From: Candidatus Bathyarchaeota archaeon
GTDB taxonomy: Archaea > Thermoproteota > Bathyarchaeia > 40CM-2-53-6
Direction: 5' to 3'
Length of the DNA stretch: 64,000 nt
NCBI GenBank assembly: GCA_005888745.1
Contig: VBBS01000028.1
Location: 174,375-238,374, forward strand
The translations under genes and the position numbers were made by a program. Positions 9,400-43,755 of this stretch are shown piece by piece. Under the pieces are notes generated by a model. The model did not search any database and was not told where the DNA came from. It saw nothing but the letters and a program-made list of their open reading frames with translations. The stretch's first letter is position 1; the number at the start of each line of letters is the position of its first letter.

Positions 9400-10209
9400 T
9401 TGGAGGTCGCATGTTCGTTGACCGTCGTGACTCTTCTCTCAGACTTCGGGTTAAGAGATGGCTACGTTGCGCAGATGAAGGGAACAATTCTCGACCTTCG
9501 CTCGAATGCTGTCATCACGGACATTTCCCATGATGTCGAACGACACAATATTCCGATGGGATCATTCATCCTTGAAACGACTACCCCTTACTTTCCAAAG
9601 GGCACGATCCACGTGGCTGTCGTCGATCCCGGAGTTGGAAACGCTAGGAAGGCGATTGTTATCGAATGCAGCACGGGATTATTCATTGGACCTGACAACG
9701 GGCTAATGGCCCGGGCAAGCGAAAAGCTAGGCTTGAAGTCGATTTATCAGATCCGGAATCAGGAGTTTCAAAGAAGACCGCCGTCGGCCACTTTTCACGG
9801 GAGAGACATATTCGCATACGTTGCCGGGCTCATAGCATCAGGGCGAAGACCCGAGGAAGTGGGACCCAAACTCTCCAAACTCGAAAAACTCGATCTGGCT
9901 CAGCCCAAGCTCTCCGGGAAAAATCTCAGCTGCCAGGTGTTGCACGTAGACGTCTTTGGAAACATTATCACCGACGTTGATGAAAATATGGTCCGAAAAA
10001 TACCTGCAAGCGTTGGAGAAGGCATCGAAATCCGATCACCAACCCGAACGCTCCAAGCCCAATATGCAAGATTCTACTCTGAAGTCGATGATGGTGCTAC
10101 TGCGGTTTTGCTTGGCAGCCAGGGATTCCTGGAAATCGCGGTTAGAGAGGGGAACGCGAGAGACAAGCTCGGCGTGAGGGCGTTGGACAAGCTGGAGCTT
10201 CGGTTCTAG
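9400..10209 (+). CDS. SAM hydroxide adenosyltransferase (DUF62, chlorinase/fluorinase-like)
   Basis: 269 residues of the family that attacks SAM with hydroxide to give adenosine and methionine. Marks are TLLSDFGLRDGYVAQMKG at the N-terminus, VVDPGVG, FIGPDNGL and the R-D-H-type segment TFHGRDIFAYVAG; the C-terminal beta-barrel includes HVDVFGNIITD. The halogenase variants are rare and mainly bacterial, so the hydroxide enzyme is the default reading. The TTG start at 9400 lies 2 nt after the tetR stop; a TTG at 9418 is an alternative. It is convergent with nadM, overlapping by 4 nt. Confidence 0.9.
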   Translation: MEVACSLTVVTLLSDFGLRDGYVAQMKGTILDLRSNAVITDISHDVERHNIPMGSFILETTTPYFPKGTIHVAVVDPGVGNARKAIVIECSTGLFIGPDNGLMARASEKLGLKSIYQIRNQEFQRRPPSATFHGRDIFAYVAGLIASGRRPEEVGPKLSKLEKLDLAQPKLSGKNLSCQVLHVDVFGNIITDVDENMVRKIPASVGEGIEIRSPTRTLQAQYARFYSEVDDGATAVLLGSQGFLEIAVREGNARDKLGVRALDKLELRF

Positions 10210-37177: not shown

Positions 37178-37444
37178 ATGATTAGCACTAGTGCTGATTT
37201 GACCCGGAAGTCATTGTTGAACATTAACGATTCCTCGAATGGCACACTCCTGCTGGAAGTCATTGAGGAACGGATAATTAGTTCACTGGGCGACAAGCCA
37301 AACAGCTCAATCAGCGAAATCGCAAGAGATCTAAGAGTCAATAGGTCAACAGCGTCGAAATATCTGCATGTTCTCCGCGCAAAAGGGAAAGTCGCATTTC
37401 GACGAGTAGGACCCGTAAAGCTTTGGTCGTTGGAGGAGCAATAG
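37178..37444 (+). CDS. Winged-helix DNA-binding protein
   Basis: 88 residues. SSISEIARDLRVNRSTASKY then LHVLRAKGKVAFRRVGPVKL is an ArsR/IclR-like winged helix with a strand-rich wing. The first ~20 residues are polar. Its stop overlaps the GTG of the KaiC-like gene (TAGTG), so they are cotranscribed and probably work together. First gene of a signalling island that runs to 43.8 kb. Confidence 0.85.
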   Translation: MISTSADLTRKSLLNINDSSNGTLLLEVIEERIISSLGDKPNSSISEIARDLRVNRSTASKYLHVLRAKGKVAFRRVGPVKLWSLEEQ

Positions 37445-38184
37445 TGGAAGTCAGAAGGGCAACCGCCCCAAGTATTCAAGAGACAGACGATAGGGTGCCC
37501 ACCGGGATCCCCAGTCTAGACAAGATAATCGAAGGCGGCCTCCGACGCGGAGACTGCATTATCGTTGCCGGCCAGCCCGGAACTGGCAAGACAACTCTCG
37601 GATTACAATTTCTGTACCACGGTGCAACCCGATGCGGAGAAAATGGTGTCTACGCCTCAGTCATAGAAAGCGGGGAGAAATTGAAACGTAACGGCCTCAG
37701 GTTCGGATGGGATCTGAACCGACTCGAAGCAGAAAACAAGCTGCGCCTCGTATCTCTCCAGTCCACCATGAAAGCCGGTGTCAGCACAGCTCTTGAAACC
37801 GTTCTGGAAGCCTTGCACACTATGAACGCGAAGAGGCTAGTATTCGATTCCCTATCAGCACTAATGACTGCGTTCGAGAGTAATGCCGAGGCCAGAAGCT
37901 TTCTCCACATCATGGTCAAATTCTTAGAGGCCGCGAACTGCACAACGATGATGATAAGCGAGGTGCCTTGGGGAAAGCAACAGCTCGGAACCAACTTCGA
38001 AGAGTTCTTGGGCGACGGCCTGGTAATTTTGGACGCAAGCTTCGATAATTCGAGAGTCCGCCGGAGAGTCTACATTCCAAAGATGAGAGGAACCGAGCAC
38101 AGATTGGAAGGATACGACTACTACATAACAAGAGACGGCTTCTCCTTGGCACCAACGCCAATTCCCCCCGACAAGATACGATGA
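37444..38184 (+). CDS. KaiC-like RecA-superfamily ATPase
   Basis: 246 residues from GTG 37444. RVPTGIPSLDKIIEGGLRRG then IIVAGQPGTGKTTLGLQFL (Walker A), RLVFDSLSALM (Walker B), and a single KaiC domain ending in EGYDYYITRDGFSL. Such single-domain archaeal KaiC proteins couple ATP turnover to signalling or motility rather than to a clock. It is paired with the upstream winged-helix gene; a second KaiC-like gene follows after 67 nt. Confidence 0.9.
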   Translation: MEVRRATAPSIQETDDRVPTGIPSLDKIIEGGLRRGDCIIVAGQPGTGKTTLGLQFLYHGATRCGENGVYASVIESGEKLKRNGLRFGWDLNRLEAENKLRLVSLQSTMKAGVSTALETVLEALHTMNAKRLVFDSLSALMTAFESNAEARSFLHIMVKFLEAANCTTMMISEVPWGKQQLGTNFEEFLGDGLVILDASFDNSRVRRRVYIPKMRGTEHRLEGYDYYITRDGFSLAPTPIPPDKIR

Positions 38185-38251
38185 GTCAAACATAGGCAAC
38201 TAAAGCTACAGCGCCCTTTGTCTTATTTCCAGAACGGACGCGGACAATCAA

Positions 38252-39289
38252 ATGCCCCCGATTAAGAGCGATCTCCTTGAGAAACTCATAGGGTCGGAAA
38301 CCAAAGCCGAGCTCCTGATGTATTTTCACGACAACCCAGACACGACCGATACAGTAGAGGGAATCGCCGCAAAGATCCGACGAAGTCCCAAGGAAATCGA
38401 GCGCGATGTGTCTGATCTCGTCGAGCTAGGGTTACTTCAGGAGGTGCGAGTTATCTCCTTCAGCAAAGACCGGGATCAAGAGTTGCAGAAAGAGATCTCT
38501 CAGCGACTTGTCTCCGCTGGATCGTTCGAGGAGGCATCCGCATCCTCGAATAGGGACCTGACAGGAGTTGGGATGATTGACTCACTTTTACCCGATGGCT
38601 ATCCGTCCTCATCGGTCGTACTTGTCATGGGGGATCCAGCAACTGGCAAGACAACCCTTCTGATCCAACTTGTCGCGGAGGCTTTGAAAAAAGGCAGAAA
38701 CGTCGTCTACGCAGCCTTGGACGATTTTCCAGACAGCATTAGAGAGTCCATGAAACTAATGGGGGCTAATCCGAGAGACTATGAAGTTGAAGGGAGGAGA
38801 AAACTCGTCTTCATAGACTGTTACTCGTTCCTCGTGGGCGTAAAGAGCCAGGAACAGTATAGCGAAGATCCACAACGCCTGTCCGACCTCAGTATCGTGG
38901 TCACAAAAGCCTTGTCGGAAGCTCGCGACTCGGGCAATGTCCTGCTTGCGATGGACTCACTAACGACGCTCATCCAAAGAAGCGGAGTAAGGCCCTCATT
39001 CGATTTCTTGCATACGTTGATCGCCAAGATAAGGAGCAACCGAGCAAGTTGTGTAACGTCACTTTCGAGGAAAGCATTTCATCCGGCCATAATCGCGGCT
39101 ATACAAGACAAGGTTGATGGTGTAATTGAGATGAAGGTGGAAGACACAAAGGATGGATTGGCGCGTTTCATTAGGGTTTCTAAAATGAAGGGGGCCCAAC
39201 ATATAACCACGTGGACTCCTTACAATCGAGACCCCTCCATGGGTCTGATAGTACCCTATGAAGAATCCCGCGCGAAGAAGTCAGTATAG
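38252..39289 (+). CDS. Winged helix-KaiC fusion ATPase
   Basis: 345 residues. Residues ~1-70 are a winged helix (KAELLMYFHDNPDTTDTVEG, IERDVSDLVELGLL). Then comes a KaiC-like domain with LVMGDPATGKTTLLIQLVAE (Walker A) and VLLAMDSLTTLIQ (Walker B), and GVIEMKVEDTKDGLARFIRV near the end. One chain thus carries the arrangement that the preceding gene pair has as two proteins. It is convergent with the minus-strand KaiC-like gene, with 5 nt between stops. Confidence 0.88.
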   Translation: MPPIKSDLLEKLIGSETKAELLMYFHDNPDTTDTVEGIAAKIRRSPKEIERDVSDLVELGLLQEVRVISFSKDRDQELQKEISQRLVSAGSFEEASASSNRDLTGVGMIDSLLPDGYPSSSVVLVMGDPATGKTTLLIQLVAEALKKGRNVVYAALDDFPDSIRESMKLMGANPRDYEVEGRRKLVFIDCYSFLVGVKSQEQYSEDPQRLSDLSIVVTKALSEARDSGNVLLAMDSLTTLIQRSGVRPSFDFLHTLIAKIRSNRASCVTSLSRKAFHPAIIAAIQDKVDGVIEMKVEDTKDGLARFIRVSKMKGAQHITTWTPYNRDPSMGLIVPYEESRAKKSV

Positions 39290-39294
39290 TTCTC

Positions 39295-40059
39295 TCATAG
39301 AACGCTTTCGCGTGGAAAGACTTCGATTCCAGTATCGGTAATTCGGTACGGCCTGGGTTGGTTGTCTAAGGGGGTTTTGCGCATTTTCTCGACCTGGATA
39401 ACGCGTAGAAGCGATTTACCGACTTGCAGTTGTTGTAGCAGTATCACTCCATGAGCGAGATATTCTTCGTAGTCGATGCTTCTTTCGAAGCCTGGCCTTC
39501 GAAGCTCGGTTGTAATCAAGCATGTTGCGCCAGTATCGGCGAGAGCTTCCATAAGTTCAACCAGGGCGTTTCGTTGGGCAGCCAATCCTTCGTATTGGAA
39601 TACCAGTGTGGTCACTGGGTCGACAACTATCCTCTTGGCCCCGATCTCTCGAACGCTTGTCTTAATCATCTCGATCAATGTCGCCATAGAGAACTCCTTT
39701 CGGCCGACGGTCAATTTTCCAACCTTTATCTCGGCAGGAAGGTATCTGATCGGCGAAGCCTCCAGGAATATCAGCTTCTTATTGTTCTCAAGGTCCGCAA
39801 AGTCCCAACCAAAGTCGAGCATTTCCTCGAAGATGTGTTGTTTGTTTTCATCGAGACTGACATAGACACCACTTTCTTCATAGTCCAAGATCCCATTCAC
39901 AAGGTACTGAGAAGACAGTATTGTCTTGCCAGTCCCAGGCCCTCCGGAGAGGAGAATGGTCCGATTTTTAGGCAAACCTCCAGTAAGCAACTTGTCTAGA
40001 CCCGGGATTCCCGTGGGAGTTCTAGAACTAGCGTTCGTATTGCCGGAGGAGTCAGCCAA
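39295..40059 (-). CDS. KaiC-like RecA-superfamily ATPase
   Basis: 254 residues. RTPTGIPGLDKLLTGGLPKN, TILLSGGPGTGKTILSSQYL (Walker A), RIVVDPVTTLVFQ (Walker B), and LITTELRRPGFERSIDYEEY with LLRVIQVEKMRKTP late in the domain. It is the third single-domain KaiC homologue within 2.6 kb and the only one on the minus strand. It is divergent from the TackOD1-like gene, with about 150 nt between starts. Confidence 0.9.
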   Translation of the reverse strand: MADSSGNTNASSRTPTGIPGLDKLLTGGLPKNRTILLSGGPGTGKTILSSQYLVNGILDYEESGVYVSLDENKQHIFEEMLDFGWDFADLENNKKLIFLEASPIRYLPAEIKVGKLTVGRKEFSMATLIEMIKTSVREIGAKRIVVDPVTTLVFQYEGLAAQRNALVELMEALADTGATCLITTELRRPGFERSIDYEEYLAHGVILLQQLQVGKSLLRVIQVEKMRKTPLDNQPRPYRITDTGIEVFPRESVL

Positions 40060-40210
40060 TAGTCTTCAAAAACGGGTTGAGTCAACTCGCAAACCATATT
40101 CGTTCTGATACGTCCCGTGTCTCGAACTAGATACAACTCCCGAATATCCATCAACGCGCGTTTCGCCTGCGAGTAGTCAGAGGCACCTAGGAGGGGTAGA
40201 GTCAATAGGA

Positions 40211-41221
40211 ATGACATCTAGAGATAGGCTTACCCTATACCAGGATCAAGGTGTCCAGCTACTGCTGGGCAGATTTGTCAAAGGGGAAATCGTTGAACTC
40301 GTGCCCAGCTTTGATCTCGGCCAAACTGCTAGATATCCAGAAGTGGAGGAAGTCGTTGATGGTGATACGGCTGCTGCGAAGCAACTGGTTGAGAAACTTT
40401 GGGACGTGGGAATATTCAAACGGAAGTTCCATGAAAAAATCCTGGTTTGTCCGAGTTGCTTGTCTGCAAATGTCAGTAATGATTACGTCTGCCCCAATTG
40501 CAATTCCATTGACATAGAGCGCAAGACTCTTCTAGAACACACTGCTTGCGGGACAATAGACAGCGTAGACAACTTTCTGGTCGAAGGGGGCCTCTACTGT
40601 CCCAAGTGCAACAAGGAGCTGATCGAAGCTGGGGTGGACTATCAGAAGCTTGGAGCCTGGTTTCAATGCTCTCAATGTGGAAAAAGGTCGGATTTGCCGA
40701 GTCCGATTCACAGATGCAGAAGTTGCGGACATATTTTTACGATCAAAGACACAGGGTTCGTGAACGTCTACAGCTACCGTATCAGCGCTGATGCAGAGGA
40801 AGAATTCAAGCGGACCTTCCTCGTGATGAAGCCCATTGGCGCAATGCTCGAGGATTTCCAGTACAAAGTCGAGATGCCAGGTCAGGTCTCGGGCCGCTCC
40901 GGGGCCCTCCATAGATTTGACGCAGTTGCCTCAAAGGGCTCATCGGAGTTGGTTGTTCTCGACGTAATCGCCAGTGAACGGGAGATCGAAGAGACCCCAA
41001 TTGCATCGCTCTACGCCAAAGTGTTTGACGTAGGTCCCACTCAAACAATCCTTGTGGCAATTCCAGGGCTAACGGAGAAAGCAAAGAAGCTATCCTCTCT
41101 ATACAGAATCCATGTTATCGAAGCCAGCGACTCGCAGCAGGCCGCAGATCTCCTAAAAGGGCATTTCGGTTGGACCGGCTTGTCGGGTAACGAAGAGTCG
41201 ATAGATGACCTGCAATTGTAA
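40211..41221 (+). CDS. TackOD1-like zinc-ribbon signalling protein
   Basis: 336 residues. Three or more zinc clusters lie in the middle: ILVCPSCLSANVSNDYVCPN, the TackOD1-type block LLEHTACGTIDSVDNFLVEG with YCPKCNKEL, WFQCSQCGKRSD and CRSCGHIF. The C-terminal ~120 residues (LHRFDAVASKGSSELVVLDV) are an alpha/beta domain that resembles a restriction-endonuclease-like fold, without a confident catalytic set. TackOD1 is described as an output domain of TACK signalling proteins; the family role here is inference. The stop codon lies inside an inverted repeat. Confidence 0.75.
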   Translation: MTSRDRLTLYQDQGVQLLLGRFVKGEIVELVPSFDLGQTARYPEVEEVVDGDTAAAKQLVEKLWDVGIFKRKFHEKILVCPSCLSANVSNDYVCPNCNSIDIERKTLLEHTACGTIDSVDNFLVEGGLYCPKCNKELIEAGVDYQKLGAWFQCSQCGKRSDLPSPIHRCRSCGHIFTIKDTGFVNVYSYRISADAEEEFKRTFLVMKPIGAMLEDFQYKVEMPGQVSGRSGALHRFDAVASKGSSELVVLDVIASEREIEETPIASLYAKVFDVGPTQTILVAIPGLTEKAKKLSSLYRIHVIEASDSQQAADLLKGHFGWTGLSGNEESIDDLQL

Positions 41222-41246
41222 CCTAGTCACTACTAGCTAGGTTACA
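41217..41246. repeat. Inverted repeat at the end of the TackOD1-like gene
   Basis: TGTAACCTAG at 41217-41226 pairs perfectly with CTAGGTTACA at 41237-41246 (10-nt loop). It contains the upstream stop codon and lies about 50 nt ahead of the AbrB-like gene. It could be a terminator, or an operator for the AbrB-like protein. Confidence 0.6.
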
Positions 41247-41263
41247 CCAGTCTCAAGCCAAAC

Positions 41264-41281
41264 AGCCACTTTGCGGTGGCT
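41264..41281. repeat. Second short inverted repeat upstream of the AbrB-like gene
   Basis: AGCCAC (41264-41269) and GTGGCT (41276-41281) with a six-base loop, 14 nt before the GTG at 41295. With the repeat at 41217-41246 it makes two adjacent hairpins in a 70-nt intergenic gap, a candidate RNA or DNA regulatory site. Confidence 0.45.
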
Positions 41282-41294
41282 AAGTTGACACCTT

Positions 41295-41507
41295 GTGCCA
41301 CTGAAGGTCAAACCTGTCAAGCTTAGAGACAGTCTTTACTTACTAATCCCTGTGAATATCGCAAGACTGCTAGGAGTCGCGGCTTCGTCCCATTTTCAGC
41401 TAAGTTTGAACGAGAGTCAAGAATCTGTCAGGCTCGTCTATGAGATGCGGAAAGACGAATCGCCGAAAGAAGTCATTACCAAAGACGAGCGAGGCGGTGA
41501 AAATTAG
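41295..41507 (+). CDS. Small AbrB/SpoVT-like DNA-binding protein
   Basis: 70 residues from GTG 41295. VKPVKLRDSLYLLIPVNIAR then LLGVAASSHFQLSL has the swapped-hairpin AbrB pattern (strand, IP-x-x-ARLLG helix, strand). The C-terminus is charged. It ends 11 nt before the membrane protein and may regulate this island. The match is to the fold pattern, not to a named subfamily. Confidence 0.7.
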   Translation: MPLKVKPVKLRDSLYLLIPVNIARLLGVAASSHFQLSLNESQESVRLVYEMRKDESPKEVITKDERGGEN

Positions 41508-41518
41508 TTCATCAGATC

Positions 41519-43381
41519 TTGGACCTGCTAGCGCTCGGCGCTTCGTTCATGGCATTGCTCTTCACGATTCGAGCCAAGAAAACCTATTTTCTGGATTCGG
41601 TTTTCTTCATCGTCGCGGCAAACATTGGCTTCCTTCTGTTTCTTTCTGATACTACGTCTTCAGACCTTCTTAACAGGCCTCCCAACCCGTACCTCGACAC
41701 CATTTTCATAGCTTTGACTGCAATTTCGATCGGTTTCGCAAGTTACCTTTTGAAGGAGAGCGGAGGGAAAGGAGGACTCACAGAGTTTACCACGTTTCTC
41801 AAGAGGCTTCCGAGGGCATTACTCGCGTTTCTCTTCATCTCAGTTGGCTGGGCAACGACTACTCTGATTTGGCGGCCGTTTACCATGAACAGCTTGATGG
41901 CCAACGGAGAATCGATCTACTACTTTTCTTATGATAGCTGGTACATACTGGTTAGCTCCTTGTTATTGGCCTCGTTCATCGCACTTCCCGTACTGGCCTT
42001 TTACAACCAGTCGAGACGAGTGCAGGATCCCAAGGCTTCGAGCTCGATTAGACTAATTAGCATCTGTTGGGCTTGTTTTGGTCTCATCACGTTCTTTCAG
42101 CAAGCATTTTCTGGAGCTTTCGCAAGCTTGGTCAAGAGTTTCAGTATCGTGGCAGACGGGGCACTGTTCGTTCTCGTGTCCTTTGCTCTTAGAGAGCCCA
42201 CGATCCTGAGTAGAATCGTCACTGGCGGTGAGATGATCTTCCAAGCCGTAAGTTCGAGCACTGAAGAGGACACGGTGGTGCTGTACAACACGGAATCTGA
42301 CAGGAAAAGGCTCGTCGAAAGGTTCGTGGAAGATGGACTAGCGACTGGACAAGAGTTGGTCTTCTACGCCATCAAGTCAGAAGTCCCTTTTTACCGTGCA
42401 ATCCTTAAGGGAACTACAACGGATCATTCGCGACAAAGGAGTCCACAAATGCTGATTCAGTCCATTGATTTCGGAATCGGGGAAGCACTAAGTGATCTCA
42501 CTGTGCCTCCCGGATTTCATCGGACCAAGAGGGAACTGGTCGACCTTGGGGAGTTGAGCCTGGACCAATGCAATCTGATAATATCCAAGGTCAAGTCCCT
42601 CGACAGTCTTCCCGGTCCTCGGCGGAGGCCGCGGATTTGGGCTCTCAATGTTGAAGAGGCGCAATCTGGTACCCTTGAGGCCTTGCGTGAAGCGAACCCT
42701 AAGGCTCGAGTTCGCGACCTTGCACTCCAGCAAGACAGTTTTTCGAAACTGCTCAATACAAAGCATCAGGCACTTTCAAAAAGTAGAATTCTCCTAGAAT
42801 ACGATCCTACCAGCAACTATGAAGATGCAATCCAGAAATTTGCCCGAGAATTCCAGGCGAACGTTGAGCCAATTGCAATATTCACAAGCATGGGGAGTCC
42901 AACGTATCGACAGTTTAGCGGGCAACATAACTTGCGATTGTTCACTTTCAGTGCAAAAACATCGACTCCCTCAAAGGTTTCTGAGGAACATGTTCTGCTG
43001 CCAGAAAGGGATACCTCCTTGCTCCTCGATGCAGTCGACAAGCTGCTGCAGGCGAACCATGGCCGTTTGGTCGGAATGGTCTTTGACGTATTCACCGACT
43101 TGATCCTTTTTCAGGGATTCGAAAAGGGATATGGTGTATTGTCGTCTGTTGTTGAGATGTCCGAGTCAGAAGCCGCTTCAACACTTGTGTTGATTAACTT
43201 CACGGCTCTCGATGAGAGGTCTCTAAATGGACTAAGAGGCCTTTTCAGATCGCAGGCGAAGTACGACTTGGGCGGATTCAGAATGGTTCGCTCGGAGAGT
43301 ACGGGATTTTCAGCATTTGAAGGCAAGAAACCGAATTTCGAAGACGAGAGTCATGGTTCGGAGGGAAGGTTGTCAAATTGA
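41519..43381 (+). CDS. Membrane sensor with MEDS-like and DUF835-like domains
   Basis: 620 residues from TTG 41519. The N-terminal ~240 residues hold about seven membrane helices (FLDSVFFIVAANIGFLLFL, ALLAFLFISVGWATTTLIW and others). Next is a MEDS/DcmR-type domain, a KaiC relative without Walker A (EEDTVVLYNTESDRKRLVER, GQELVFYAIKSEVPFYRAIL). The last ~200 residues resemble DUF835 (RILLEYDPTSNYEDAIQKFA, GRLVGMVFDVFTDLILFQGF). The layout suggests a membrane receptor with two degenerate KaiC-like sensor or output modules. Its stop overlaps the next start (TTGA). Confidence 0.8.
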   Translation: MDLLALGASFMALLFTIRAKKTYFLDSVFFIVAANIGFLLFLSDTTSSDLLNRPPNPYLDTIFIALTAISIGFASYLLKESGGKGGLTEFTTFLKRLPRALLAFLFISVGWATTTLIWRPFTMNSLMANGESIYYFSYDSWYILVSSLLLASFIALPVLAFYNQSRRVQDPKASSSIRLISICWACFGLITFFQQAFSGAFASLVKSFSIVADGALFVLVSFALREPTILSRIVTGGEMIFQAVSSSTEEDTVVLYNTESDRKRLVERFVEDGLATGQELVFYAIKSEVPFYRAILKGTTTDHSRQRSPQMLIQSIDFGIGEALSDLTVPPGFHRTKRELVDLGELSLDQCNLIISKVKSLDSLPGPRRRPRIWALNVEEAQSGTLEALREANPKARVRDLALQQDSFSKLLNTKHQALSKSRILLEYDPTSNYEDAIQKFAREFQANVEPIAIFTSMGSPTYRQFSGQHNLRLFTFSAKTSTPSKVSEEHVLLPERDTSLLLDAVDKLLQANHGRLVGMVFDVFTDLILFQGFEKGYGVLSSVVEMSESEAASTLVLINFTALDERSLNGLRGLFRSQAKYDLGGFRMVRSESTGFSAFEGKKPNFEDESHGSEGRLSN

Positions 43382-43755
43382 GCAGATCCCCGTCTTTCAG
43401 TCAGGTACTTCTTGACTGTGTAGACGAGGGACTGGGCGTTCTCGGAAATGAGCCTAGGCAGGCCATCTACCAGTACCTTTCTACAATTCATTCGCTCGAC
43501 CGGGAGCAGATTCCTGACAAAGTCGATGAGTTCGCAAGCGGCCTGAAAAAGGCGTTGGGTAGTGCATCAAGAGTGATCGAGAGACTCATCCTGAAGAAAC
43601 TGTTTCAGAGGATAGGATCTACGTTCCGTGAGACCCCGGAACTGGAGTTCGCAGATTATGTGCGGGACGCTAAGCGCCGGTTTGATATTACTCCAACGAA
43701 ACACAGCGATCCTTTAGAAGGCCTTCGGTCAAAGAAGGGTCAGGTTACCGGTTAG
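43378..43755 (+). CDS. NitrOD5-like signalling output protein
   Basis: 125 residues. VLLDCVDEGLGVLGNEPRQA, IYQYLSTIHSLDREQIPDKV, and FASGLKKALGSASRVIERLI match the NitrOD5 type of thaumarchaeal output domain (a helical bundle ending IERxIxKxLxxxIG). TTG 43378 is in a TTGA overlap with the membrane sensor, so the two probably form a receptor-output pair. It is convergent with pth2, overlapping by 27 nt. Confidence 0.75.
   Translation: MSRSPSFSQVLLDCVDEGLGVLGNEPRQAIYQYLSTIHSLDREQIPDKVDEFASGLKKALGSASRVIERLILKKLFQRIGSTFRETPELEFADYVRDAKRRFDITPTKHSDPLEGLRSKKGQVTG

Follow-up and report, generated by a model that had tools for sequence, protein, structure and literature searches.

Signalling in Archaea is reportedly organized in part around KaiC: Makarova, Galperin and Koonin are said to have described, in mBio in 2017, a KaiC-hub network of KaiC ATPases, inactivated KaiC domains (MEDS and DUF835), helix-turn-helix (HTH) partners, and Death-domain-like proteins. 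The role of KaiC ATPases as archaeal signalling hubs is a prediction that has little experimental support, and few receptor-ATPase pairs have been defined. KaiC-centred signalling, inactive KaiC domains, and pairs of KaiC with Death-like proteins have all been proposed before (PMC5847659; PMC4858521), and Galperin et al. placed NitrOD5 in an archaeal Death-domain-like family (PMC5847659). Here we describe an island of eight genes at positions 37,178 to 43,755 of a 64,000-nucleotide stretch (hereafter the window) from Candidatus Bathyarchaeota archaeon (assembly GCA_005888745.1, contig VBBS01000028.1), a member of a soil Bathyarchaeia lineage with a genome of 2.2 Mb. Text searches of the literature, which covered few subscription papers, returned no description of a KaiC island in Bathyarchaeia.

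The island encodes a winged-helix protein (wH1), three KaiC-family ATPases (K1, the winged-helix fusion wHK2, and K3), a TackOD1 protein, an AbrB-like protein, a membrane protein (Mem), and a small helical protein (OD5). All eight genes proved to be real and placed as in the original prediction, and their orthologues occur in the same order across the soil Bathyarchaeia family (f1). The transcription units look like three, namely wH1-K1-wHK2, K3 alone, and TackOD1-AbrB-Mem-OD5, with K3 convergent with wHK2 and divergent from the last unit over about 150 bp. The gene order and the wH1/K1 and Mem/OD5 overlaps are not chance, since they recur in relatives. Our preferred interpretation, to which we give about an even chance, is that of a modular signalling locus of the KaiC-hub type, with a core formed by Mem as receptor, K1, and OD5.

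Recurrent linkage of K1, Mem, and OD5

Mem has seven hydrophobic helices by hydropathy, and its AlphaFold model shows seven long helices followed by two alpha/beta domains. Direct assignment of Mem, the AbrB-like protein, and OD5 in Pfam and NCBIfam gave nothing significant, and chains of homologues were needed. Specifically, Mem itself scored insignificantly against MEDS (PF14417; 11.4 bits against a cut-off of 29.8, E-value 0.28), 11 of 16 Mem orthologues matched it weakly, and a homologue from another family (L225) exceeded the cut-off over the aligned region (58.1 bits, 1.2e-15). For DUF835 (PF05763) there was no match in the window Mem itself, weak matches in 8 of 16 orthologues (best 3.4e-4), and scores above the cut-off of 33.1 bits in the homologues L214 (45.4) and L280 (41.6); no Walker motif is present in the DUF835-like domain. 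A Foldseek search with the Mem model retrieved two-domain KaiCs as the best PDB matches, plus PH0250. Hydropathy and modelling agree with the predicted seven helices, and homologue scores and fold point to two degenerate KaiC-like domains. Together with the linkage described below, this supports a membrane protein that is made of KaiC-type domains and has KaiC as its partner. In the Mem orthologue of genus G018 (L049:9317-10795), most of the MEDS-like middle domain is missing in frame, and the seven-transmembrane (7TM) part and the DUF835-like domain are kept.

OD5 starts in a TTGA (43378-43381) that overlaps the Mem stop codon, as originally predicted. Its AlphaFold model is all-helical (pLDDT 83), and PH0832 (2p9x), which we take to be linked to NitrOD5 (PF11537), ranked first in both the Foldseek search (probability 1.00, TM-score 0.82) and the profile search (4.7e-4). 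The NitrOD5-like assignment stood at the level of fold and failed in the direct hidden Markov model search, in which PF11537 did not match the window OD5; it matched 7 of 24 OD5 homologues (best 7.6e-4, below the cut-off where scores were shown). OD5-like genes were found in 85 of 151 genomes of the class. Within 500 bp of 62 sampled OD5-like genes, 15 had a KaiC/GvpD ATPase and 21 a histidine kinase, and the nearest partner was always on the same strand. These KaiC neighbours were mostly of 470-530 amino acids, and the five tested carry GvpD_bR2. Response regulators adjoin at least four OD5-like genes (L229, L232, L234, and L250), and Mem adjoins one in L225 and L243. Neighbours of these kinds are expected of a signalling adaptor, and the simplest reading is that OD5 acts as a small helical adaptor whose partner may be either a histidine kinase or a KaiC, which suggests an adaptor common to both signalling currencies. 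A small multi-helix membrane protein of about 260-280 amino acids also adjoins OD5-like genes (L189:7102-7872, L220:4971-5804, and L242:6121-6924).

The linkage of K1 with Mem extends well beyond the soil family. Locus L225, from family f23 and distant within the class, is an operon of a K1-like KaiC, a Mem of 632 amino acids, and OD5, with the same 4-nt Mem/OD5 overlap as in the window. Partial versions of the core were found in L276 (K1-like KaiC, then Mem) and L243 (Mem, then OD5), and a K1-like KaiC adjoins a membrane protein of DUF835 type in L214 and L217 (f9) and in L280 (f47). In total, at least five other families combine a KaiC of the K1 clade with a membrane protein of 7TM/DUF835 type, and in one case OD5 is joined to them in a translationally coupled operon. 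In the KaiC tree, the KaiCs located beside full-length or 7TM/DUF835 proteins share a single clade with K1 (support 99/96). Shorter Mem-like proteins accompany a histidine kinase and a K3-like KaiC in f3, f15, and genus G019. A KaiC lies no more than 3 kb from 14 of the 17 Mem-like loci outside the island, when about 8% would be expected per locus (p ~1e-13; by family, 7 of 9, p ~5e-7), and these p values are only indicative, as they assume the KaiC density of the window genome to be uniform and the loci to be independent.

The loci of family f31 (L278, L279, and L281) share a conserved operon of an AsnC-type HTH gene, KaiC, a GH3-like enzyme, and a 7TM-DUF835-type protein, which places a metabolic-type enzyme inside a KaiC signalling operon. 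Here the HTH gene overlaps the KaiC gene, like wH1 and K1, and the 7TM-DUF835-type protein of L278 matched HisKA_7TM (1.8e-5). L277 (f15) resembles these loci, with a V4R-like protein in front.

The assumptions behind the p values for KaiC linkage are one of several points that weigh against a core of K1, Mem, and OD5. The counts for the wider loci are conditional on the Mem or OD5 hits that led to them, and L225 is the only complete locus of all three genes outside the family. In the window, K1 lies in a different transcription unit from Mem and OD5, with K3 between them on the opposite strand. The AlphaFold model of Mem is of modest confidence (pTM 0.41). Three groups of Mem paralogues in family genomes have neither KaiC nor OD5 nearby, and in genus G020 the island is broken at the wHK2/K3 junction, with K1 and wHK2 on another contig. 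Mem paralogues of the same genomes were set aside as evidence on account of their lack of such neighbours; among them, L199, L200, L206, L207, and L208, about 19-24% identical to Mem, lack both KaiC and OD5 in the flanks that were retrieved.

The genes might also be neighbours by history only, as unrelated regulators held in a slowly rearranging stretch of chromosome. Island orthologues were found in nearly all family genomes searched, and the flanks are equally syntenic (malic enzyme, L15e, GPPS, and IPK on one side; PTH2, psmA, SBDS, rrp4, and rrp41 on the other), so within-family synteny was rejected as evidence for function. The G020 rearrangement, beyond whose K3 lies an unrelated gene set, splits the eight genes, and TackOD1 is located elsewhere in other families, both of which fit a purely historical association. 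Such an association would, however, leave unexplained the 4-nt Mem/OD5 overlap, the recurrence with a K1-like KaiC in distant families, and a KaiC linkage of Mem-like genes far above chance, and we consider it unlikely. Genus G019, represented by a 67% complete genome, is without TackOD1 and K1 and gave no full-length Mem match.

The full set of eight genes was found in this one family only. The original prediction of a linked system, to be given up if the genes occurred independently in relatives, holds for the core idea of K1 and Mem, with OD5 joined to them once, and not for TackOD1, which does occur independently in relatives. A single dedicated eight-gene system found no support outside the family, where TackOD1, AbrB, and wHK2 are separate from the core. 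Elsewhere in the order wHK2 is located away from TackOD1, the AbrB gene was seen near no partner outside the family, and neither gene has a consistent partner.

No histidine kinase or response regulator (receiver domain) was detected in the whole window with models built from Bathyarchaeial sequences of both, in agreement with the original prediction. K1, Mem, and OD5 look like a histidine-kinase-free route for signals from the membrane inward, and membrane-to-DNA signalling by these proteins is a plausible proposal. The 7TM part of Mem would sense a membrane or extracellular signal, and its catalytically dead pseudo-KaiC domains would dock onto K1 and alter its nucleotide or assembly state. 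OD5, translationally coupled to Mem, may connect receptor and ATPase with the output, and wH1, co-translated with K1, may convey the state of K1 to DNA. Soil Bathyarchaeia would have extended this core with wHK2 and AbrB as DNA outputs and with K3/TackOD1 from a type IV pilus locus. More generally, and with less than an even chance, archaea may have a class of 7TM receptors that would signal without phosphotransfer, by way of ATP-dependent KaiC assemblies. The dead two-domain KaiC that makes up the cytoplasmic part of such a receptor would dock on an active KaiC, and the signal would be relayed by a Death-like adaptor of NitrOD5 type able to serve histidine kinases and KaiCs alike.

TackOD1, K3, and type IV pilus loci

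The prediction of a TackOD1-like protein was confirmed: PF18551 covers residues 34-191 at 123.6 bits (cut-off 32), the CXXC and HXXC motifs are present, and the cysteines are invariant in 15 orthologues. The C-terminal domain of the protein (40793-41218) has a conserved GKSGxHxFD...D motif and weakly resembles Mrr/restriction endonucleases without the catalytic Lys; it is possibly a dead nuclease fold. A known fold could not be assigned to this domain, for which the searches gave only weak matches to Mrr_cat (0.011) and DUF1829 (0.0016) and no convincing solved relative. L068, on a contig titled candidate division KSB1 bacterium and thus outside archaea, encodes a TackOD1-like protein of 32% identity.

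TackOD1 is present in 117 of 151 class genomes, and the pilus genes T2SSE/T2SSF (ATPase/TadC) adjoin it in 14 of 20 class loci (L099-L118, with TackOD1 near position 9500 in most). Pilin-like proteins recur as further TackOD1 neighbours across Bathyarchaeia. Among 22 TackOD1 genes, which served as controls for the KaiC linkage, none had a KaiC or histidine kinase within 500 bp, and TackOD1 was rejected as a fixed KaiC partner outside the family, its usual place being pilus loci. In almost all genomes of the family, the island holds the sole TackOD1 match; the family pilus locus is without TackOD1 but has adjoining KaiCs, including a close K3 paralogue (L303 and L304). In a sister family, locus L117 holds a K3-like KaiC, T2SSE, T2SSF, and TackOD1 together. 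Because TackOD1 lies in pilus loci elsewhere, a K3 paralogue lies by the pilus genes of the family, and L117 joins these genes, the K3/TackOD1 half of the island was probably derived from a pilus locus and relocated.

K3 and TackOD1 may remain coupled to pili. If their action on the assembly or expression of pili persists and Mem serves as sensor, the island would mainly regulate type IV pili or surface structures. Besides the pilus loci just described, an earlier link of KaiC and a Death-domain-like partner to type IV pili (PMC4858521) and the effect of the haloarchaeal KaiC CirA on motility (PMC13286277) speak for such a role. We nevertheless find it doubtful as the main function, as no pilus gene lies inside or next to the island, TackOD1 is a domain without known function (PMC5847659), and the core of K1, Mem, and OD5 occurs without pilus genes in L225.

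Features of the island and the remaining genes

Table 1. Coordinates in the window of the island genes, their parts, and the K3/TackOD1 spacer
Feature	Position	Strand	Basis
wH1, 88-aa winged-helix DNA-binding protein, paired with K1	37178-37444	+	HTH_5/IclR-type HTH above Pfam cut-off
K1, single-domain KaiC-family ATPase	37444-38184	+	PF06745, 2.1e-55
wHK2, winged-helix/KaiC fusion, 345 aa	38252-39289	+	PF06745, 2.3e-26
K3, single-domain KaiC-family ATPase	39295-40059	-	PF06745, 1.7e-64
K3/TackOD1 divergent intergenic region, likely shared promoter region	40060-40210	none	conserved blocks in relatives
TackOD1 protein, zinc-ribbon TackOD1 domain and C-terminal domain	40211-41221	+	PF18551, 8.9e-36
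AbrB-like, 70-aa swapped-hairpin DNA-binding candidate	41295-41507	+	family profile against PDB
Mem, whole gene	41519-43381	+	hydropathy, AlphaFold, homologue HMM scores
Mem N-terminal part, seven transmembrane helices, residues 1-235	41519-42223	+	hydropathy, AlphaFold helices
Mem first cytoplasmic domain, MEDS-like degenerate KaiC fold, residues ~250-400	42266-42718	+	MEDS in homologue L225; orthologues
Mem second cytoplasmic domain, DUF835-like degenerate KaiC fold, residues ~420-590	42776-43288	+	homologues L214 and L280; Foldseek
OD5, 125-aa all-helical NitrOD5-type adaptor	43378-43755	+	AlphaFold, Foldseek, profile search

The two winged-helix/KaiC units (the wH1-K1 pair and the wHK2 fusion) and the third KaiC were recovered as predicted, with PF06745 scores of 188 (K1), 93 (wHK2), and 218 bits (K3) against a cut-off of 26.6. 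The winged helix of wH1 matched HTH_5 (3.5e-5), and its DNA-binding half is conserved in 11 sequences; that of wHK2 was recognised by sequence only. K1 most likely starts at GTG 37444, with a one-base overlap with the wH1 stop (TAGTG), a start best supported because relatives carry ATG at that position. All three ATPases keep the Walker A motif GxPxTGKT (GQPGTGKT, GDPATGKT, and GGPGTGKT in K1, wHK2, and K3). Among wHK2 orthologues (L179-L186) Walker A is lost or altered in several families of the order (for example, GDPGSGRE, SDPGAGGE, and ADPAAGKD), and it is retained in f1 and f4. In another genus (L049) K1 and K3 are 84% and 86% identical to those of the window, comparable to the exosome subunits Rrp4 and Rrp41 (86%); Mem and OD5 diverge more (42-55%).

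In another reading, these ATPases would form a KaiC oscillator for timekeeping, in which OD5 stands in for KaiB. The solved sequences closest to K3 are cyanobacterial KaiC, and a DEATH-like protein beside KaiC was suggested as a KaiB replacement by Makarova et al. in 2016 (PMC4858521). However, the island proteins gave no match to KaiA or KaiB, the ATPases are single-domain, and known clocks include no membrane receptor. At the tandem acidic position after Walker A, K3 appears to keep the catalytic pair (DEN), which seems changed in K1 (IES) and wHK2 (DDF). We consider an oscillator highly improbable.

The spacer between K3 and TackOD1 is about 150 bp in most relatives and contains the conserved blocks TGATACG, GATACA, and GAATAT. 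The AbrB-like protein alone gave no Pfam match and no significant direct Pfam/NCBIfam family; the predicted similarity emerged only through its family profile against PDB (C56, 1.1e-4; AbrB/MazE/SpoVT weak, 0.18). RNA families and tRNAs were searched for in the window and none was found.

Comparison with described systems

With only three proteins, K1, Mem, and OD5 make up a minimal module that recurs at depth and is open to expression and testing. The island contains the same kinds of parts as are reported for the archaeal KaiC-hub network. To these it adds a putative 7TM-MEDS-DUF835 receptor, which shows translational coupling to an adaptor of NitrOD5 type and linkage to a KaiC of the K1 clade, an OD5 family that appears to switch between KaiC and histidine kinase partners, and a TackOD1 outside its usual pilus loci.

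Three more specific systems offer closer comparisons. In the pair of KaiC (arCOG01174) and DEATH-like protein (arCOG03758) of type IV pilus subclade 4B (PMC4858521), the KaiC gene likewise adjoins one that encodes a small helical protein of Death-domain-like type; in the island, by contrast, the gene of the putative adaptor shares its first bases with that of a membrane pseudo-KaiC and lies outside a pilus locus. The archaeal HisKA_7TM histidine kinases and the histidine kinases and response regulators with MEDS or DUF835 (PMC5847659) resemble the island in their use of 7TM input or MEDS/DUF835-type domains in signalling, whereas the island has no HisKA/HATPase or receiver domain and a KaiC ATPase as the partner. 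Finally, the island protein has a TackOD1 domain above the Pfam cut-off like the thaumarchaeal and Bathyarchaeal TackOD1 of type IV pilus loci (arCOG06883), but its gene lies outside a pilus locus, divergent from K3.

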